From the IMG/VR virus record IMGVR_UViG_3300035212_000242, positions 1-36,359 of that record: a stretch of DNA of 36,359 bases; one strand, 5' to 3'. The DNA is from a virus. The notes beneath the pieces are model-generated. The model was not told the DNA's origin. It made no database searches and saw only the letters and a program-made list of their open reading frames with translations. Shown here one piece after another: positions 3 to 36,359 of the stretch. The position numbers and the translations under genes are program-made. Numbering within the stretch: position 1 is the stretch's first letter; each line of letters begins with the position of its first letter.

Positions 3-407
3 AATATTTGGTTAAAGCGAAACACTTTTAAACAACATACAGATGGCTCAACTTCACCTTTAATGGAATACGCTAACACCTTACAAAACATAGATGCTTT
101 TGATTTTGATAGGACTTACATAAATCAAATATCTAAAGACTACGACCCGACAGCCGATATAGTTTTTGAAGCTGCAAAGAAAATAATAGCTAAAGATAGT
201 GATAGCGATAGAATGGAAATAAGATACCGAGCGAGGGTTTATAACCATTCTAACAATAACATTGCAGGCTTTGAAGCTATTAAATCATTTAAAAATGCTG
301 GCAGGTTTTCGCAATACATTGGAATAAAAAGATGCGCTATTTATAAAAGTTGTAGGGAATACCAAGAGATTTTAAAAAGTAAACTAAAATATATTATCAA
401 TGGTTAA
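3..407 (+). CDS. Hypothetical protein, 5' end outside window
   Basis: The reading frame is open from base 3, without a stop, through an internal ATG at 63, so the true start probably lies left of the window and only the C-terminal 134 residues are visible. The C-terminal half is basic, with a region (GFEAIKSFKNAGRFSQYIG onward) that could form a small helical DNA-binding-like domain, but I recognise no family. It overlaps the next gene by 8 bp, which makes it the first visible member of the coupled operon that continues through the glycosyltransferases. Function unknown. Confidence 0.6.
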   Translation, partial: NIWLKRNTFKQHTDGSTSPLMEYANTLQNIDAFDFDRTYINQISKDYDPTADIVFEAAKKIIAKDSDSDRMEIRYRARVYNHSNNNIAGFEAIKSFKNAGRFSQYIGIKRCAIYKSCREYQEILKSKLKYIING

Positions 408-3744: not shown

Positions 3745-4320
3745 ATGGAAATAGAAAAAATAGCAATAAGTAAAATTAAACTTAATCCAAATAACCCTCG
3801 GTTAATTAAGGACGATAAGTTTGCCAAGTTGGTTCAGTCTATAAAAGACTTCCCCGAAATGTTAAATATCAGACCGATAGTGGTTAATGATGATATGATT
3901 ATATTGGGCGGAAATATGCGTTTTAAAGCATGCAAAGAAGCTGGGTTAAAGGAAGTATCGATTATTAAAGCAAGTGGATTATCTGAGGAGAAACAAAGGG
4001 AATTTTTGATTAAGGATAACCTATCAGGTGGCGAATGGGATTGGCAATTATTAAACGACTGGGATGCTTTGGAATTGGAAAGTTGGGGTTTAGATTTGCC
4101 TAATTTTGCTGCAGAGGTTGATTATTCTATTTTAGATGATGAAGATGTATCAGGACAATTAAATGATATGACAGATGGTGTTAAAAAAGCCATCCAAATA
4201 GAATTTGAGGCTGAACATTACGACCAAGCTTATGAACTTGTTAAATTTTGGAGAGACCAAAAGGCATATGTAGGAGGAATGATTATGGAGTATTTAAAAG
4301 AAGAAAAAGAAAAGATATGA
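3745..4320 (+). CDS. ParB-like N-terminal domain protein
   Basis: 191 residues. Residues 1-75 form a ParB/sulfiredoxin-like domain: ISKIKLNPNNPR near residues 8-19, then RPIVV at 43-47 and the glycine-rich GGNMRFKACKEAG at 55-67, the variant of the ParB GxxR motif common in phages. It continues with FLIKDNLSGGEWDW and ESWGLDLP, a region often found in phage ParB proteins that sit beside, or are fused to, DNA methyltransferases. In phages such domains act as nucleases or DNA-modification partners rather than in plasmid partition. Here it directly precedes a methyltransferase and a dioxygenase. The gene ends in an ATGA overlap with the methyltransferase. Confidence 0.8.
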   Translation: MEIEKIAISKIKLNPNNPRLIKDDKFAKLVQSIKDFPEMLNIRPIVVNDDMIILGGNMRFKACKEAGLKEVSIIKASGLSEEKQREFLIKDNLSGGEWDWQLLNDWDALELESWGLDLPNFAAEVDYSILDDEDVSGQLNDMTDGVKKAIQIEFEAEHYDQAYELVKFWRDQKAYVGGMIMEYLKEEKEKI

Positions 4321-6182: not shown

Positions 6183-7322
6183 GTGTTTAAAACCTCATGC
6201 CTATACGAAGCCAATTACTTTGCCACCGAAGATGTACTAGTCAATCAAGGCGGGAGCAGCTCAGGAAAAACCTATTCCATTTTACAAGTCCTATTCACTA
6301 AAGCTATTCAATCGCCAATAGTTATCACAGTTGTTGGCGAATCAATCCCTAACTTAAAAGCCGGGGCGTTACGTGATGCCTTAGATATTTATAACAATAG
6401 CGAACAACTTAGGCATAAGATAGCAGACTACAATAGAACAGACCGTATCTTTCAATTTGCTAATGGCTCAGTTATGGAGTTTAAATCTTATGAGACCGCC
6501 CAAGGTGCAAAGTCTGGTAAAAGGGATTATCTATTCATAAACGAAGCACAGGGCATAACATACGATATATTTAACGAATTGTATATGCGTACCCGTAAAC
6601 AAGTTTATATCGACTACAATCCCAATGCTGAGTTCTGGGTGCATGAGAATTTAATAGGTACGGATGGCGTAAAGTTATTTATATCCGACCACAGGCACAA
6701 TCCATTCGTTGCTCAAAAGATACGTGATAAAATAGAGGGTTTACGCTTTAAAGATATGGAACTATTCAAGGTTTATGCACGTGGCATGACTGGGAAAATA
6801 GAGGGCTTAGTCTTTAGAAACTTTGATATTGTAGATAACATTCCTTTGGGTGCTGAGTTACTTGGAATAGGTATGGACTTTGGCTTTACTAATGACCCTA
6901 CAACGGTTATAAAAGTATTTAGGTACAATAGTGAGATATACATAGACGAGCTGTTATATCGCACAGGATTAACCAATAGCGATATTGCAAACGAATTAAC
7001 AAGGTTAGGTGTAACACGTGCCATGCCAATAGTTGCGGATAGTGCCGAGCCTAAAAGTATTGAAGACTTAACAAGGGCAGGTTTTAATATTCAAGGGGCT
7101 AACAAAGGGGCAGATAGTATCCGTAATTCAATAGACACTTTAAAGCAATTTAAGATTAACATAACAAGAACGTCAACTTATACCATAAAAGAGTTTAGAT
7201 CTTATAAATGGATAGATGGTAAAAATATACCCGTTGATTTTAATAATCACACTATTGATGCTATTCGTTATGTAGCTCTTAATAAGATAAATAAAGGCTC
7301 AGGCAGATATTCATTTGCCTAA
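6183..7322 (+). CDS. terL: Terminase large subunit
   Basis: 379 residues, slightly short for a PBSX-type large terminase (about 400-450) but with both domains. Walker A is GGSSSGKT at residues 23-30 and Walker B with the catalytic Glu is YLFINE at 116-121, forming the packaging ATPase. The C-terminal RNase H-like nuclease shows GMDFGFTNDP (about 230), VADSAEP (about 285) and HTIDAIRY (about 358), with the expected acidic residues. Translation must start at the GTG at 6183; the ATG two bases earlier is in another frame and stops after 19 codons. The stop is followed by a two-box promoter-like motif. Confidence 0.95.
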   Translation: MFKTSCLYEANYFATEDVLVNQGGSSSGKTYSILQVLFTKAIQSPIVITVVGESIPNLKAGALRDALDIYNNSEQLRHKIADYNRTDRIFQFANGSVMEFKSYETAQGAKSGKRDYLFINEAQGITYDIFNELYMRTRKQVYIDYNPNAEFWVHENLIGTDGVKLFISDHRHNPFVAQKIRDKIEGLRFKDMELFKVYARGMTGKIEGLVFRNFDIVDNIPLGAELLGIGMDFGFTNDPTTVIKVFRYNSEIYIDELLYRTGLTNSDIANELTRLGVTRAMPIVADSAEPKSIEDLTRAGFNIQGANKGADSIRNSIDTLKQFKINITRTSTYTIKEFRSYKWIDGKNIPVDFNNHTIDAIRYVALNKINKGSGRYSFA

Positions 7323-16002: not shown

Positions 16003-16623
16003 ATGGAACTAATAGATTTAACAATCGAAGACGATGTAAAAGATGCTAGTGGTGTAACTGCCATTGCAACAGTTGACAGCCCTGCAATAGAGCAAGGTTA
16101 CTTTGCCTTTGGTTCTAACAAAGAATTAAAAACAATCCGTATTACTTGCGGAAGTCAAAAAGGAAACTTTGCAGCTCCTACAGGCGATAGACAAATACTT
16201 GCCGGTGCTTTAATGATCCCCGACATGGCTATTCCTAGAATAGACGAGAAAACTAAAAAGGAATATAACGTTAAATTCTCATCTAAAACTATTGAGCAAA
16301 TAGTTAAGAAACACGCTAAGTTAAGTTATGCCAATAACGTTAACCAAATGCACGATAACACACGCATGATTAACGATAGCTATTTATATCAATCGTTTAT
16401 TATTAATCGTGCTATGGGTGTTAATCCGCCTTTAGGACAAGAACATTTAGTTGACGGTACTTGGTTTGGTTTTATTTACATAGGTGATAAGAACGTTTGG
16501 GATGAATATATTAAGACGGGAATATATACCGGCTTTAGTGTTGAGGGTAATTTTTATGAAAGTGTGGCTACTGAATTAAGCGATGAATTTTGCGCCCACC
16601 TGTTAAGTGTAATTTTAGAGTAA
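16003..16623 (+). CDS. Prohead protease, XkdF-like
   Basis: 206 residues. It opens with VTAIATVDSPAIEQ, then ILAGALMIPDMAIPR, NVNQMHDN with a candidate catalytic His, and VWDEYIKTGIYTGFSVEGNF with a candidate catalytic Ser, the order found in XkdF-type phage serine proteases (W...G-x-Y-x-GFSxEG-x-F). The enzyme would cleave scaffold and capsid during maturation. It lies directly before the scaffold-like gene and the major capsid protein. The final bases of the gene are part of a 16-bp direct repeat that recurs 92 bp downstream. Confidence 0.8.
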   Translation: MELIDLTIEDDVKDASGVTAIATVDSPAIEQGYFAFGSNKELKTIRITCGSQKGNFAAPTGDRQILAGALMIPDMAIPRIDEKTKKEYNVKFSSKTIEQIVKKHAKLSYANNVNQMHDNTRMINDSYLYQSFIINRAMGVNPPLGQEHLVDGTWFGFIYIGDKNVWDEYIKTGIYTGFSVEGNFYESVATELSDEFCAHLLSVILE

Positions 16624-26047: not shown

Positions 26048-26074
26048 CCTAGCTTTGTTAGGGCTAGGCGTTTT
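26048..26074 (+). terminator. Intrinsic terminator after lysis genes
   Basis: Stem CCTAGC / GCTAGG (26048-26053, 26063-26068) with a 9-base loop, then CGTTTT. A modest T-run, but the stem lies 5 bp after the holin-like stop and before convergent minus-strand genes. It probably separates late transcription from the leftward operon. Confidence 0.7.
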
Positions 26075-26101: not shown

Positions 26102-26284
26102 TTACTCAGCACAATAAATACACTTACTTTTAATTTCAATTAATTGTGTATTAGCCTTTAAATATTGCGTTCGATAATATAGTATATCTTTATTAGCACG
26201 ATCTAATTTAGCCTGCAATATAACAGTTTCTTTTGAATTGCCAGAGCAACTTGTTAACGCTAGTATTATTATTAAGTATTTCAT
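26102..26284 (-). CDS. Small lipoprotein
   Basis: 60 residues if started at the minus-strand ATG at 26284, preferred over a TTG at 26299 because it follows GAGGGAT, a plausible ribosome-binding site. The N-terminus MKYLIIILALTSCSGNS has a lipobox (LTSC) with Cys at position 13, so the mature protein is probably anchored in a membrane. The remainder is helical (ILQAKLDRANKDILYYRT) with CxxC near the end. Convergent with the holin-like gene. Could be an outer-membrane spanin, but that is only a guess. Confidence 0.65.
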   Translation of the reverse strand: MKYLIIILALTSCSGNSKETVILQAKLDRANKDILYYRTQYLKANTQLIEIKSKCIYCAE

Positions 26285-26288
26285 AATA

Positions 26289-26576
26289 CTATCCCTCAAT
26301 TAGTCTTAATTCGTTATAAATCTCGCTATACAAAAAGTAAATAGTTTTGTACAATTCAGCAACGTCTAAACCATGACGGCTAAACCTCTTAATAATAGGT
26401 TCTAAACCTTTCTCAACAGAATAGCAAGTAATTACTATCTCATCCGTTTTAAAATCTATTTCAACTCTAACCTCTTCGCATAAAGTTGATAGTGAATAAT
26501 CGCCTTGATCCTCATTATAGAATATAGCATGAACAGCTCCTGTTATGTATTCCGTGTTATTGTGTAGTGTTATCAT
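26289..26576 (-). CDS. Hypothetical protein, leftward operon
   Basis: 95 residues, first gene of a leftward pair driven by the promoter at 26602-26633. It is acidic with beta strands (EVRVEIDFKTDEIVITCYSV) followed by a helix (VAELYKTIYFLYSEIYNEL). Nothing in it resembles a repressor. The lipoprotein gene begins 5 bp after its stop. Function unknown. Confidence 0.6.
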   Translation of the reverse strand: MITLHNNTEYITGAVHAIFYNEDQGDYSLSTLCEEVRVEIDFKTDEIVITCYSVEKGLEPIIKRFSRHGLDVAELYKTIYFLYSEIYNELRLIEG

Positions 26577-26601
26577 ATTTGTTTGGTTTTTAATTATACG
26601 T

Positions 26602-26633
26602 CAAAGATATATAATTAATTTGGTTATACCAAA
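26602..26633 (-). promoter_or_regulatory. Leftward Bacteroidota-type promoter
   Basis: On the minus strand, TTTG at 26633-26630, a 20-bp spacer, then TATCTTTG at 26609-26602 (TAnnTTTG). The gene begins at 26576. The spacer length and the -7 element match the rightward promoter at 26709-26740, which supports both. Confidence 0.75.
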
Positions 26634-26634
26634 T
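26618..26634. repeat. Inverted repeat operator overlapping leftward promoter
   Basis: ATTTGGT-TAT-ACCAAAT is a perfect 7+7 inverted repeat. It covers the -33 TTTG of the leftward promoter. A related copy, ATTTGGT-ATT-ACCATTT, lies at 26708-26724 over the -33 of the rightward promoter. This is the layout of a repressor that would block both promoters. Confidence 0.6.
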
Positions 26635-26668
26635 ATATTTTATTAAATCTTTCAAATAAAATTAAACG

Positions 26669-26683
26669 TACTGATAATCAGTA
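26669..26683. repeat. Palindrome between divergent promoters
   Basis: TACTGATAATCAGTA is a perfect 15-bp palindrome around a central A, lying between the two divergent promoters. It is a likely binding site for a dimeric regulator or bridging protein. Confidence 0.6.
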
Positions 26684-26707
26684 AGTTAAAATAATAATTG
26701 AAAATAA

Positions 26708-26724
26708 ATTTGGTATTACCATTT
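26708..26724. repeat. Imperfect second operator
   Basis: ATTTGGT-ATT-ACCATTT has the same left arm as the operator at 26618-26634 and 5 of 7 matching bases in the right arm. It overlaps the -33 of the rightward promoter. Confidence 0.45.
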
Positions 26725-26740
26725 TAAAGCTATATCTTTA
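26709..26740 (+). promoter_or_regulatory. Rightward Bacteroidota-type promoter
   Basis: TTTG at 26709-26712, 20-bp spacer, TATCTTTA at 26733-26740, and the ATG of the next gene at 26761, about 15 bp beyond the expected start of transcription. Strong agreement with the Bacteroidota -33/-7 rule. Confidence 0.75.
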
Positions 26741-26760
26741 CATCATAAAACAAAACAACT

Positions 26761-26961
26761 ATGAAAAAATTAAAAACAATCTCAAATCAAGAAATTAAAA
26801 TTTCATCTAATAAGTCTAATCGTACTTATACCATTAGAACTAATGGTTCTGTATATAGAACAATTAAGATGAGTAAGGAAGAATTTAAAAGCAATTCTAA
26901 CAATACAGGAAATGATTGGAAGAATTTTTTAAGCAGCGACGATTATTATTTAGTAAAGTAA
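26761..26961 (+). CDS. Small basic hypothetical protein
   Basis: 66 residues, rich in Lys, Ser and Asn (MKKLKTISNQEIKISSNKSN...). First gene of the rightward early operon, with an A-rich leader. It has beta strands (RTYTIRTNGSVYRTIKM) and an amphipathic end. It could be a regulator, given its place next to the operators, but no known DNA-binding fold is visible. Confidence 0.6.
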   Translation: MKKLKTISNQEIKISSNKSNRTYTIRTNGSVYRTIKMSKEEFKSNSNNTGNDWKNFLSSDDYYLVK

Positions 26962-26965
26962 AATT

Positions 26966-27115
26966 ATGATAAAACAACCAACAAGACCAGCCCCATTCGG
27001 GATAAGACTAACCCCTAACACTAAATTATTGTTAGAGAAAAAAGCTAAATTAAAAGGCATAAAGCTACACGCCTATTGTAAAGATGTACTAACTAAACAC
27101 GCTGATAGAAAATGA
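26966..27115 (+). CDS. Small ribbon-helix-helix-like protein
   Basis: 49 codons. The sequence has FGIRLTPNTKLLLEKKAKLKG, then an LHAYCKDVL helix, which reads like the strand-helix-helix of an Arc/CopG-type regulator (I-R-L-T-P followed by two helices). It is a candidate for binding the palindromes upstream. It ends in an ATGA overlap with the next ORF. Confidence 0.5.
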   Translation: MIKQPTRPAPFGIRLTPNTKLLLEKKAKLKGIKLHAYCKDVLTKHADRK

Positions 27116-27246
27116 TACAACTACTAATCTTTATGGCTTTATTTAGCTTTGGGTTATTAATCCTTACAATGTGTTACCCTCACATTGGAATAGTTATTCA
27201 CGATGCCATTGCTCACTACTGGCATAAATACATTATGAGAAAATGA
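27112..27246 (+). CDS. Small membrane protein
   Basis: 44 codons in an ATGA overlap. An N-terminal hydrophobic segment (LLIFMALFSFGLLILTMC) makes one membrane helix; the rest is short and His/Tyr rich (HDAIAHYWHKY). It ends in an ATGA overlap with another ORF. Role unknown. Confidence 0.5.
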   Translation: MIQLLIFMALFSFGLLILTMCYPHIGIVIHDAIAHYWHKYIMRK

Positions 27247-27344
27247 CATGGATTGCAGTAGTAAGCATAGTAACGCTAGGCGTTATTAGTTACATGATTA
27301 AAGATAATGAATATCTAGACTGGAGGGATAACAATGATATTTAA
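27243..27344 (+). CDS. Small membrane protein
   Basis: 33 codons in ATGA overlap with the previous ORF: MTWIAVVSIVTLGVISYM gives one membrane helix and an acidic tail. Its end overlaps the start of the homing endonuclease gene by 11 bp. A run of three overlapping micro-ORFs suggests real translation here. Confidence 0.45.
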   Translation: MTWIAVVSIVTLGVISYMIKDNEYLDWRDNNDI

Positions 27345-27882
27345 AAAAGACCATTGGTATCCTTTAAAAGGATTTGAAAACACTCACCATATAAATATAA
27401 ATGGTGATATAAAAAGACTACCAAGATACCTTAATGGTAAATTAGGCTCAAAAAGTTTTCGTGATGAAAAGATACTTAAACCCGAAAAGATGAAACTTGG
27501 ATATTTTAGACACGCTTTAGTTAATATTGATGGCACAAGAAGTAGGATTTTAGCCCATGTATTAGTAGCTAGAACGTTTATAAATAATCCTGAAAACAAA
27601 CCACAAGTAAATCATAAAAACGCTATAAGGAATGATAACAGAATTGAAAATTTAGAATGGGTTACAGCTAGAGAAAATTCAACACACGGCTCTATTAATA
27701 AAAAATTTAATTGTAATTCTGTTGGGGTGGTTTACAGTAAGGCAAGAAAAACATATCAAGCTAGGTTTAATATTAATCATAAGGTAATTTGTTTGGGTAC
27801 ATTTAAAACAGAAAAAGAGGCGTCTGAGGTATATAAAAATTACATGAAAGAAAATGGATTTAAAAATAAATTTATTAAATAA
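27334..27882 (+). CDS. HNH endonuclease with NUMOD4 and AP2 domains
   Basis: 182 residues in three parts. The NUMOD4-like start (WYPLKGFENTHHININGDIKRL, residues 8-29) binds DNA. The HNH nuclease core is AHVLVARTFINNPENKP, VNHKN and DNRIENLEWVTARENSTH, with H75, H94 and the N/E region near 101-118. The end (GVVYSKARKTYQARF...CLGTFKTEKEASEVYKNY) resembles AP2 domains. Such genes are free-standing homing endonucleases that copy themselves into related phages. It is in frame with nothing beside it and sits between small ORFs and the early genes. Confidence 0.9.
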   Translation: MIFKKDHWYPLKGFENTHHININGDIKRLPRYLNGKLGSKSFRDEKILKPEKMKLGYFRHALVNIDGTRSRILAHVLVARTFINNPENKPQVNHKNAIRNDNRIENLEWVTARENSTHGSINKKFNCNSVGVVYSKARKTYQARFNINHKVICLGTFKTEKEASEVYKNYMKENGFKNKFIK

Positions 27883-28306: not shown

Positions 28307-28672
28307 ATGGAAATCACCGGACAAATCAAAGAGGTATTCGCAACCCAAACAATTAGCGAAAAGTTTAAAAAACGTGAATTTGTACTAACGACAGACGGAA
28401 GTACACCGTACCCAAACCATCTATTAATTCAAGTTACTAATGCAAAATGTGACTTATTAAATAGCTATTCAAGTGGGGATGAGGTTACAGTTAGCATAAA
28501 TTTGCGAGGGCGTTTATACGAAAACCCAACTAAAGGAACTCAGTACTTTAATAGTATTGAAGCATGGGCTATAAAGGGAGTATCACAATTTACTAAACCA
28601 GCTCCAAACGTACAAGCGGAGAATCATGCAATAATAAATAATAATTTAGATCAAGATATTTTGCCGTTCTAA
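28307..28672 (+). CDS. DUF3127-like single-strand-binding protein
   Basis: 121 residues. MEITGQIKEVFATQTISEKFKKREFVL, then NAKCDLLNSYSSGDEVTVSINLRGRLY and YFNSIEAWAIKG form an OB-fold-like pattern of the Bacteroidota DUF3127 family (SFKKREFV and GDxVxVxxxLRGR). The C-terminus NNLDQDILPF mimics the acidic DDxIPF tail of SSB proteins, which recruits replication and repair enzymes. Adjacent to the ERF annealase, consistent with handling of single strands. The promoter for the next leader overlaps its 3' end. Confidence 0.8.
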   Translation: MEITGQIKEVFATQTISEKFKKREFVLTTDGSTPYPNHLLIQVTNAKCDLLNSYSSGDEVTVSINLRGRLYENPTKGTQYFNSIEAWAIKGVSQFTKPAPNVQAENHAIINNNLDQDILPF

Positions 28673-28690
28673 ATATTATTAGTATATTTG
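28660..28690 (+). promoter_or_regulatory. Bacteroidota-type promoter before kissing-loop leader 1
   Basis: TTTG at 28660-28663, a 19-bp spacer, TATATTTG at 28683-28690. Expected transcript start near 28696, right at the first hairpin of the structured leader. The -33 lies in the last codons of the DUF3127-like gene. Confidence 0.75.
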
Positions 28691-28700
28691 CAGTAAGTTA

Positions 28701-28793
28701 AACAAGAGTAGAGACTTGTTATTCATAACTAAACTATTTAAAACCTAAGCGGGTGCGGTTTCTCTACGCCAATCCTGCTTAGGTTTCTTTTTT
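28701..28793 (+). ncRNA. Kissing-loop two-hairpin leader RNA 1
   Basis: Hairpin A: AACAAG (28701-28706), 8-base loop AGTAGAGA, CTTGTT (28715-28720). Hairpin B: AAACCTAAGCGGG (28741-28753) with CCTGCTTAGGTTT (28774-28786), a 13-bp stem including one G-T pair, followed by C and six T. Seven bases of loop A (GTAGAGA, 28708-28714) are complementary to TCTCTAC (28761-28767) in the loop of hairpin B. It lies between a clear promoter and the ERF gene (ATG at 28807). Either an attenuated leader or a free small RNA of about 95-100 nt. Compare the element at 33687-33767. Confidence 0.7.
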
Positions 28794-28806
28794 AAAACAA
28801 AACAAA

Positions 28807-30135: not shown

Positions 30136-30384
30136 ATGGAAATGATATACTTAATACTTAGCCAGTTTACTTTTAGTTTTAGTAGAACTTTAAATGTAAG
30201 ATATACTGCAAAAGAAAATGTTTTAATGGGTATTATAACATCTACATTGATAAAATTAACTTGGCTTGTTAGTAGCTCAATAGGTGTAAAATCTGTTATT
30301 GATGGCGATATAAAAATGTGTATTGCTTATGTAATAAGCGGATTAATTGGTGATTATTTATCTTATAAAATAAAAATAAAATGA
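30136..30384 (+). CDS. Multi-pass small membrane protein
   Basis: 82 residues with three hydrophobic segments (IYLILSQFTFSF; MGIITSTLIKLTWLVSSS; CIAYVISGLIGDYL), so probably embedded in the inner membrane. A segment reads SRTLNVRYTAKENV. It overlaps the PP-loop gene by 4 bp (ATGA), which suggests a joint function, for example small-molecule transport or anchoring. The family is not known to me. Confidence 0.6.
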   Translation: MEMIYLILSQFTFSFSRTLNVRYTAKENVLMGIITSTLIKLTWLVSSSIGVKSVIDGDIKMCIAYVISGLIGDYLSYKIKIK

Positions 30385-31118
30385 AAGAAACAATATCAGT
30401 TTGGTTTAGTTGCGGAGTTGCAAGTGCAGTAGCAGCTAAAAAAACTATTGAAAAGTATGGTGAAACTCATAATATTTTAATAGTAAACAACCCAGTTAAA
30501 AACGAGCATCCTGATAATTTAAGATTTTTAGCTGATGTTGAAACTTGGTTAGGACAAAAGATTATTAAAGCCACTAATGATAAATACCCAAATGCTGATA
30601 TTATAGAGGTATTTGATAAGGTTAAATATATTAGTGGTGTTGCAGGTGCGCCTTGCACAAGGGAATTAAAAAAGGAAGCGAGATACCAATTTGAAAAGAA
30701 AAATAAAATTGACTGGCACGTTTTAGGGTTTACCATTGATGAATGGGAAAGGCAAAAAAGATTTAATACAGGCGAAAGAGGAAATACAATACCTGTGCTA
30801 ATTGCTGAATTATTAACTAAACAAGATTGCTTTAAAATAGTTGAAAAGGCTGGGATTAAATTGCCTTTAATTTATTCGCTTGGTTATCCAAATGCTAATT
30901 GTATCGGGTGTGTAAAATCGCAAAGCCCTACTTATTGGAATTTAGTTAGAAAAACTTTTCCAGATGTGTTTGAAGAACGTGCAATACAGAGCAGAAGAAT
31001 AGGTTGTAAACTTGTTAAATTAAAAGGTAAAAGAATTTACTTAGATGAATTATTAGAAACTCATAAAGGCGGTAAAATTAAAAGCTATGAATGCGGAATT
31101 TTTTGCGATACTAAATAA
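30381..31118 (+). CDS. PP-loop protein, PAPS-reductase/sulfurtransferase-like
   Basis: 245 residues. The N-terminus has VWFSCGVASAVAAK, a PP-loop (SxGxxS type) that binds the pyrophosphate of ATP or PAPS. CTREL at 92-96 and NCIGCVKSQ (C174, C177) with CGIFC (C238, C242) could hold an Fe-S cluster or zinc. This arrangement resembles the PAPS reductase-like family found in phages and DndC-like sulfur-handling enzymes. The substrate is uncertain: sulfate metabolism, RNA thiolation or DNA phosphorothioation are all possible. The gene overlaps a membrane protein gene and is followed by a possible nucleotide-modification gene. Confidence 0.75.
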   Translation: MKETISVWFSCGVASAVAAKKTIEKYGETHNILIVNNPVKNEHPDNLRFLADVETWLGQKIIKATNDKYPNADIIEVFDKVKYISGVAGAPCTRELKKEARYQFEKKNKIDWHVLGFTIDEWERQKRFNTGERGNTIPVLIAELLTKQDCFKIVEKAGIKLPLIYSLGYPNANCIGCVKSQSPTYWNLVRKTFPDVFEERAIQSRRIGCKLVKLKGKRIYLDELLETHKGGKIKSYECGIFCDTK

Positions 31119-34782: not shown

Positions 34783-36359
34783 TAGTAATTAACCCAATAG
34801 ACAAAAAAGAATATACCATCGAGGTTACTAAAAACGGTGAAAACCAAATGACTTGTCCTGAATGTTCACCTAACCGTAAAAAGAAAACGTTAAAATGTTT
34901 TAGCTTTAACATTAATAAAAATGCTGGTAGGTGTAACCATTGCGGAGTGGTATTGGTAGCCAAAGAAGATAAGCCTGTTTTTGTAGAACCTGCCAAAGTT
35001 TACAGTAAGCCGATTTGGAACAATAAAACAGAATTATCAAATAATGCCGTTAAATGGTTTGAAAGTAGAAAGATAACACAAAGTATATTAAATGAATTTA
35101 AAGTTACTGAGGGGGCTGAATGGATGCCACAAACGCAAAATTCAGTTAACACCATACAGTTTAATTACTTTAAGTTTGGTGAATTAGTAAATGTTAAATA
35201 CCGGGATGGCGCTAAAAACTTTAAACTATTTAAAGATGGCGAAATGATTTTTTACAACCTAGATGCCACAATTAACAACAATGTGATAATAATTGTTGAG
35301 GGTGAAATGGATGTTTTAGCAATGGCTCAAAGTGGTTTTAAAAACGTTATATCAGTACCAAACGGATGCAACGATAAAGGCAAAATTAACATGGACTACC
35401 TAGATAATTGTATAGATTATTTTGTAGAGGATTGTAAATTCTTATTGGCACTTGACAATGATAAAGTAGGTAACAGATTAAAGGATGAATTAGCCAGACG
35501 TTTAGGTTACGAAAATTGCAGTACCATTACCTTTAAAGATTGTAAAGATGCCAACGACTGCCTAATTAAATACGGAATTATTGGGGTAACCGAATCTATT
35601 GAAGCGGCTAAAGAATATCCTATCGAGGGGGTTTTTAATGCTATTGATATTCAAGATTCAATATGGGATTATTACAATAATGGTTTACCAAGTGGCTTTG
35701 GTATTGGGATGCATGAGTTTGATATGTTTTTAAAGTTTCAGCCGGGTTACTTAACAGTAATTACAGGAATACCCGGACATGGTAAAAGTGAGTTTTTAGA
35801 CTTTTTAATGTGCCGATTAAACATTTCACATGATTGGAAGTTTGCTTTATACTCACCAGAAAACCACCCATTACAATTACACTTTAGTAAGTTAGCTGAA
35901 AAGGTTATAGGTAAACCATTTGATGGGCAAAACAGAATGTCACCTTTAGATCTTACAACTACAATAGAATATTTAAAAGACGTTTTTTACTTTGTTAATC
36001 CTGCAGAAAATTTTACACTTGACAATATTTTAACAGCCGTTAAAAGTCTAGTCCGTAAAAAAGGAGTTAAGGCTTTTGTGATTGACGCTTGGAATAAGTT
36101 AGAACACAATTACAGTACAAACGAAACTAAATATATCTCTGAACAATTAGATAAAATAGTTACATTTTGTGAAAAGAATAGCGTGCATTGCTTTTTAGTT
36201 GCTCACCCAACTAAAATACAAAAAGACAAAGCAAGTGGAAAATTTGAGATACCAAACCTTTATTCCATAAGTGGTTCTGCTAACTTTTACAATAAGGCTG
36301 CAAATGGAATAACAGTTTACAGGGACTACGAAAACTTTACTACTGAAGTTTATATTCAA
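34779..36359 (+). CDS. Primase-helicase, Twinkle/T7-gp4-like (3' end outside window)
   Basis: 527 codons visible; the frame has no stop before the window ends. Zinc fingers CPEC (26-29) and CNHC (52-55) start the primase. The TOPRIM domain has IIIVEGEMDVLAM (about 169-181) and ALDND (about 224-228). The helicase has Walker A GIPGHGKS (about 330-337) and Walker B AFVIDAWN (about 431-438), and FLVAHPTK (about 472). This is the primase-helicase layout of T7 gp4 and Twinkle, which unwinds and primes at the fork. Its ATGA overlap with the initiator-like gene suggests they act together. Confidence 0.9.
   Translation, partial: MIVINPIDKKEYTIEVTKNGENQMTCPECSPNRKKKTLKCFSFNINKNAGRCNHCGVVLVAKEDKPVFVEPAKVYSKPIWNNKTELSNNAVKWFESRKITQSILNEFKVTEGAEWMPQTQNSVNTIQFNYFKFGELVNVKYRDGAKNFKLFKDGEMIFYNLDATINNNVIIIVEGEMDVLAMAQSGFKNVISVPNGCNDKGKINMDYLDNCIDYFVEDCKFLLALDNDKVGNRLKDELARRLGYENCSTITFKDCKDANDCLIKYGIIGVTESIEAAKEYPIEGVFNAIDIQDSIWDYYNNGLPSGFGIGMHEFDMFLKFQPGYLTVITGIPGHGKSEFLDFLMCRLNISHDWKFALYSPENHPLQLHFSKLAEKVIGKPFDGQNRMSPLDLTTTIEYLKDVFYFVNPAENFTLDNILTAVKSLVRKKGVKAFVIDAWNKLEHNYSTNETKYISEQLDKIVTFCEKNSVHCFLVAHPTKIQKDKASGKFEIPNLYSISGSANFYNKAANGITVYRDYENFTTEVYIQ

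Follow-up and report, generated by a model that had tools for sequence, protein, structure and literature searches.

Organization of the locus

The 184-bp gap at 26577-26760 (18% G+C) separates two genes of opposite orientation in a viral record of IMG/VR. The window, i.e. the whole stretch of DNA that was analyzed, corresponds to the entire record of 36,359 bp. To the left of the gap, the minus strand encodes an acidic protein of 95 aa (26289-26576), followed by a lipoprotein-like protein of 60 aa (26102-26284; MKYLIIILALTSC..., lipobox read by eye), with which the putative leftward transcript ends. To the right, the plus strand encodes a KTSC-like protein of 66 aa (26761-26961), a ribbon-helix-helix-like (RHH-like) protein of 49 aa (26966-27115) that is a candidate repressor, and a membrane-protein-like open reading frame (ORF) of 44 aa (27112-27246). 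The acidic protein is 98-100% identical in six loci. It has no significant family, and the lipoprotein-like product matches no family at E<=0.001. A preliminary description of this DNA had seen in the leftward genes a small acidic protein and a lipoprotein with no clear repressor; indeed, family searches with both products gave no DNA-binding match.

According to PHROGs, the plus strand first encodes terminase, portal and virion proteins, an endolysin and a holin-like protein; these are followed by Erf, single-strand-binding, Gam-like, exonuclease (minus strand) and RusA-like genes. A primase/helicase-like frame, named by reading, is cut by the right end of the window. On a circular map based on the relative L227, window position 36359 corresponds to L227 position 6198 and window position 1 to L227 position 6770, leaving a gap of about 571 bp. 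In L227, the sequence between these points comprises a 46-aa ORF flanked by the last part of the helicase-like gene and the first part of a 202-aa ORF. Hence, if the phage resembles L227 in this region, the gene list of the window is nearly complete. The 202-aa ORF across the missing piece (L227, 6568-7176) shows a weak match to sigma-70 region 2 (E 0.006, below the cut-off), and a sigma-like ORF of 168 aa, identified by reading, lies directly left of the divergent promoter of locus L009. Judging from their sequences, these two ORFs possibly encode a late-gene regulator.

A terminator-like hairpin is found on the plus strand at 26048-26068, after the rightward late and lysis genes and before the leftward pair; it comes from a consensus scan only, which gave 3 such sites in the stretch vs. 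1.2 expected. Rfam has no match anywhere in the window. ParB_N-domain and PAPS-reductase-like genes often occur together in phage DNA-modification sets, and the window has one of each, at 3745-4320 (Pfam 4.5e-8) and 30381-31118, respectively. Finally, an HNH endonuclease gene (27334-27882) is absent from four related loci (L012, L019, L020, and L021) between otherwise conserved neighbors and is probably, on this comparison, a recent homing-type insertion.

Two divergent promoters with operator-like palindromes

In Bacteroidota, the -33 and -7 promoter boxes are described as TTTG and TAnnTTTG (PMC2483708). Both sides of the gap carry a promoter that fits these boxes with a spacing of about 20 bp, the exact value of 20 bp being measured in the window. 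The leftward promoter, P_L, reads TTTG-20-TATCTTTG on the minus strand from 26633 to 26602, with its -33 box at 26630-26633 and its -7 box at 26602-26609. The rightward promoter, P_R, reads TTTG-20-TATCTTTA on the plus strand from 26709 to 26740, with its -33 box at 26709-26712 and its -7 box, which ends in TTTA, at 26733-26740. The promoter pattern alone is weak, since it is matched 15 times in the window vs. 7.2 expected, and a generic sigma-70 promoter scan of the window was uninformative (16 found vs. 15.9 expected).

Three palindromic sites accompany these promoters. An exact 17-bp palindrome, ATTTGGT-tat-ACCAAAT (26618-26634, hereafter O_L), covers the left -33 box, which is formed by its right arm. 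A similar 13-bp version of this word, TTTGGTATTACCA (26709-26721, hereafter O_R), begins with the right -33 box; its 11-bp core TGGTA-t-TACCA (26711-26721) is palindromic. Midway between the two promoters lies a 15-bp palindrome, TACTGAT-a-ATCAGTA (26669-26683). The preliminary description had reported operator-like repeats at both -33 boxes and a perfect 15-bp palindrome between them, and these features stand, letters and coordinates included. It had also described two facing promoters; both TTTG/20-bp promoters are present, but they are divergent, back to back. A further palindrome (26830-26847; 8-bp arms with 3 G/C each, 2-bp spacer) is located inside the 66-aa gene, about 70 bp past its start.

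The clustering of these sites was evaluated with 5000 dinucleotide shuffles of the gap. Strong palindromes, defined by 7-bp arms having at least 2 G/C and a spacer of up to 3, occurred at least once in 2% of the shuffles and at least twice in 0.04%; two of them together with a third palindrome having 5-bp arms were never obtained (0/5000). Taken by its weighted score, the single best palindrome reaches P=0.034 only. Over the whole window, the 7-bp class is not in excess (6 seen vs. 7.2 expected from 50 shuffles), so that the significance rests on clustering and position. The word TTTGGTATWACCAAA is found 23 times in the window at up to 3 mismatches vs. 8.3 expected, an excess that is partly due to the counting of a palindromic word on both strands. 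At up to 2 mismatches, it is restricted to three places, the two promoter sites and a coding sequence (16108-16122). The operator-like word is therefore nearly confined to the two -33 boxes, and its regulator looks local.

The P_L and P_R regions are moreover inverted near-copies of each other, with 73% similarity over 56 nt (26586-26641 and 26701-26756), and their symmetry at 15, 30, or 50 nt was matched by none of 200 shuffles. This symmetry might be the by-product of a strong promoter duplicated in inverted orientation, in which case TTTGGTATWACCA would be an extended promoter with no operator role. Such an origin would account for the fact that the similarity spans the entire arms, 5' leaders and -7 boxes included, for the lack of a window-wide excess of strong palindromes, and for related cassettes in which the pattern is missing or weak (see below). 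However, the best-matching 15 nt of the arms are the -33 word itself (13/15 identical), and nothing in the promoter consensus calls for the exact 17-bp palindrome of the left copy. We regard simple duplication as unlikely. The gap is a real control region with solid statistical support, of a kind already known, and a fairly ordinary module.

Small proteins encoded to the right of the gap

The gene of the 49-aa protein starts 205 bp past the first start codon downstream of P_R. The structural model of the protein, based on four sequences and of modest confidence (pLDDT 75), contains two helices, 17-30 and 34-47, after an N-terminal segment. No strand is formed in this monomer model; in RHH proteins, the N-terminal strand, which reads DNA, pairs with that of the partner in the dimer. 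The list of fold matches is led by Arc, CopG, NikA, PutA, and antitoxin RHH domains, with Z of 5.0-5.5 across 38-43 residues for most of the top 13 rows (all under 6, and hence under 8). Foldseek also returned RHH matches, with E above 0.5. At the sequence level, no RHH family exceeds its curated cut-off; the best one is the NikA-like PF21983, with 24.7 bits vs. the 27 required and E 2.5e-5, and the NCBIfam MbpA model gives E 0.093. The predicted fold thus suggests an RHH-like protein, in line with the preliminary description, and the protein is not assigned to a named family.

The model of the 66-aa protein is confident (pLDDT 89). Its two best fold matches are the KTSC proteins 4rgi and 7x8c (Z 6.0, hence under 8, rmsd 2.8, 64/66 residues), ahead of HerA rows (Z 5.1 to 4.2) and of others at 3.9 and below, and the Foldseek comparison with 7x8c gives E 0.038. 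The Pfam KTSC family is absent among the 8 families matched at E<=1 by any of 9 members of the protein's family. From the model, the 66-aa protein likely has a KTSC fold. Its family is also found in L009/L010, L011 (identical to L218), and L219-L225. The gene is the first one beside a divergent neighbor in L009 and L222, and lies inside an operon in L218 and L219. It is often followed by the gene of a small DNA-binding protein, recognized by an HTH_3 match in L011 and by reading only in L009, L219, L220, L221, and L222. A relative with 43% identity (E 8e-5) is encoded next to a replication initiator gene in a human-saliva Microvirus (L214, 3425-3667); on this similarity, the KTSC-like family extends to single-stranded DNA phages. 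A search of cellular genomes with the KTSC alignment, which reaches close relatives only, gave none.

Because KTSC structures are its best fold match and KTSC proteins have been called DNA-binding (PMC9503650), the 66-aa protein could itself be a DNA-binding regulator, alone or with the RHH-like protein, perhaps through the central 15-bp palindrome. The KTSC-like family leads an operon in L009, L220, and L222, and L009, which encodes a 74% homolog, has the core of the central palindrome in the form TTGATaATCAA. Nevertheless, site and gene do not go together elsewhere: L019 has the TGATaATCA core and no KTSC gene, the core is missing before the KTSC-like genes in the gaps of L222 and L224 and in the last 300 bp of the L220 gap, and the KTSC-like genes of L218 and L219 lie inside operons with no divergent promoter just before them. 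A regulatory role of this protein therefore appears improbable.

TGATaATCA was also considered as a conserved third operator and set aside as weak: it occurs in 3 of 9 gaps (those of the window, L019, and L009), the word was chosen after it had been seen, and a 4-bp-arm palindrome common to at least 3 of the 9 gaps arose in 22 of 1000 shuffles. A looser scan with TTTGGTATnACCA-10..12-TAnnTTT gave at least 119 stretches; pooled over the loci fetched from it, TGATwATCA occupies 29 distinct places, 11 of them with a longer palindrome.

Exchange of the control region among relatives

A search with the endolysin gave 85 relatives, from which 80 loci were kept. Nine of these (L012 and L014-L021) span the same junction between the leftward pair and the rightward genes; L013 and L022 stop short of it, and the remaining ones have other arrangements or reach contig ends. 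The nine records and the window fall into five versions: window/L014, L017/L018/L019, L020, L021, and L012/L015/L016. Alignment of the window with L019, L020, L021, and L012 in 50-nt bins gives mostly 90-100% identity in the flanks, vs. an unalignable segment at about 26605-27101. From the identity profile and the letters at the boundaries, the exchanged cassette covers approximately 26622-27111 and holds the operators, P_R, and the 66-aa and 49-aa genes. A search for further cassettes through a downstream ORF of 136 aa gave no new version: of its 9 loci, 8 are on contigs already seen and L231 is cut off before the cassette.

The left edge of the cassette lies inside the O_L palindrome, up to which L019 matches the window (to about 26622), as does L012 (to about 26625). 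These two loci, which lack the operator, also lack the TTTG box of P_L, and the pattern search finds no left promoter of this form in them. L020 differs from the window throughout the left promoter as far as the start codon, and in L012 the left gene is replaced too. The right edge is formed by the 44-aa ORF, before which L012 has a further gene of 178 aa. The small protein encoded beside P_R differs from one version to the next, being RHH or RHH-like in four and weakly HTH-like in one. Besides the 49-aa protein of the window, these are a 46-aa CopG_antitoxin-like protein in L012 (E 1.1e-4, below the cut-off), proteins of 43 aa in L020 and 53 aa in L021 that are RHH-like by alignment only and have no Pfam match, and a protein of 54 aa in L019 that is weakly HTH_17-like (E 0.045).

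The preliminary description had proposed to judge the palindromes by their conservation in relatives. Taken literally, this check goes against the sites: they are absent from all four other cassettes, and no independent relative keeps them, the only other carrier found being L014 (identical to L184; contig 3300034117_000573), which is 100% identical over the shared stretch. Comparative support for the sites is therefore indirect. However, in the other cassettes the promoter/operator segment and the small protein are replaced together. The site is thus lost where the protein is lost, as a cassette-specific operator predicts. None of the other cassettes shows inverted symmetry as strong as that of the window (P 0.015-0.29 in L019, 0.02-0.185 in L020, 0.06-0.215 in L012, and 0.34-0.58 in L021). 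Their best palindromes are a 16-bp one over the right -33 box in L012 (P=0.052) and a 13-bp one in L019 (P=0.18), followed by those of L020 (P 0.46) and L021 (P 0.88); in L021, neither side has such a promoter by the pattern search.

Mosaicism is not restricted to this region. It also affects the holin region of L020, positions 28651-28800 in three of the four compared loci, and the Erf region of L021. Given these cases, and the replaced left gene of L012, exchange of the cassette alone is no proof that it moves as a regulator-operator unit. Two other rearrangements were noticed. In L012, the 29 nt that precede the stop codon of a GIY-YIG nuclease gene (6733-7146) are identical, except at one position (28/29), to the last nucleotides of the RHH gene of the window. 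An earlier exchange seems to have left this mark, the nuclease having apparently taken the place of most of an RHH gene of the window's type. In L021, an extra leftward gene of 80 aa (6427-6740) has a copied 5' leader (TATTTGTTTGGTTTTTAATTATACGTCAAAGATA), and leftward early genes thus appear to be stacked behind repeated leaders.

Occurrence of the operator-like word in other viruses

Scanning IMG/VR for TTTGGTnnnACCA present twice at 60-90 bp gave 19 stretches, among which only that of the near-identical phage L184 has the pair between divergent genes. Of the other 18, 14 fall within mechanical ORFs of at least 60 aa, and four (L244, L245, L250, and L252) lie outside such ORFs. An internally repeated stretch of an unrelated virus contig, L249, has four copies of TGGTAWTACCA in 91 bp (3996-4086), and its pair is counted inside a mechanical ORF of 91 aa.

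The form TGGTnnnACCA resembles operators of the GntR family (GntR/FadR-like). A host regulator might therefore bind these sites, and the phage would read the state of its host instead of regulating itself; the copies in L249 indicate that the word is not specific to the phage of the window. Against this, the site travels with the cassette, and relatives whose hosts are presumably of the same kind do not have it. A literature search on GntR/UxuR-like sites gave nothing useful. We give little credit to a host regulator.

A model for early transcription control

We lean, if only slightly, toward repression of both early promoters by the cassette's own 49-aa RHH-like protein, in the manner of P22 Arc. 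The gap would control two early operons that diverge from it, in an apparently integrase-free Bacteroidota phage. P_L would drive the acidic protein and the lipoprotein; P_R would drive the KTSC-like protein, the RHH-like protein, and the replication and recombination genes (SSB, Erf, Gam). Upon entry, both promoters would be read at once by the host RNA polymerase. As the 49-aa protein accumulates from P_R, it would bind TTTGGTATWACCA(AA) over both -33 boxes and would thereby close its own promoter and the divergent P_L together. Operators and RHH-like protein would form one cassette, exchanged as such between relatives.

The Arc protein of phage P22 acts on the divergent mnt promoter as well as on its own. 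In P22, arc and ant are described as transcribed from P_ant, which Arc self-represses (PMC12111858). The likeness with immunity I of P22 would reside in a small RHH protein encoded on the transcript of the promoter that it represses, as proposed here, and Arc is among the top fold matches of the 49-aa protein. In contrast, Mnt, Ant, and sar RNA, which are described in the P22 immunity I region (PMC2629481), were not recognized in the window, no integrase was found, and the promoters are of the Bacteroidota type. An RHH protein, MobC, is also reported to autoregulate through a palindrome overlapping its promoter (PMC4175270). MobC/NikA mobilization operons would thus share with the present locus an autorepressing RHH protein, and the NikA-like family is the best Pfam match of the 49-aa protein. 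However, there is no relaxase among the annotated genes of the window, and the sites of the window cover two divergent promoters. Finally, divergent promoters with intervening operators are also described for the CI-MOR system of TP901-1, which differs in that neither an HTH_3 protein nor an integrase was found in the window's phage.

The preliminary description had seen in this region the form of a genetic switch; one candidate is a switch of the lysis/lysogeny type. Divergent promoters, several operator-like sites, and exchanged regulator cassettes do resemble immunity regions, and such a switch could work with a repressor that family searches do not recognize. A lysis/lysogeny switch is not supported by the gene content. 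Phage_integrase and Resolvase gave no match in three records (the window and two relatives, the record G004 of one of them covering the 571 bp or so outside the window), and Phage_integrase gave none in 10 other records, mostly fragments. Among 11 records, HTH_3 matched only in the distant one that holds L011; the window gave no match, nor did the other nine, which are mostly fragments. The leftward genes, as mentioned above, have no DNA-binding match. A search with the portal protein in a genome collection of 84,980 species, which reaches close relatives only, gave no near relative. Since no integrase, resolvase, or HTH_3 protein was found in the window, and no near relative was found in the genome collection, we consider a lysis/lysogeny switch very unlikely.

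Biological significance

If the repression model is true, the locus illustrates, on a small scale open to experiment, how an uncultured Bacteroidota phage controls its early transcription. A literature search at the title and abstract level revealed, among the matches listed, no operator-level case from Bacteroidota phages. What adds slightly to its value is that, in a phage with no recognized integration genes, a small gene of DNA-binding type is exchanged along with the promoter/operator segment while the backbones stay nearly identical. Five interchangeable cassettes between the same flanks also constitute a ready set for the question of regulator-operator co-evolution, and bear on whether phages devoid of integration genes carry immunity-like types.

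One may go further and see in the locus an immunity-type module of integrase-free Bacteroidota phages, in which cassette exchange replaces the regulator along with its operators. A resident phage would then, through its early repressor, block early transcription from a co-infecting relative that shares its type, but not from one of another type. We consider this reading doubtful. If true, it would mean that superinfection control and diversifying selection can operate in these phages without lysogeny.
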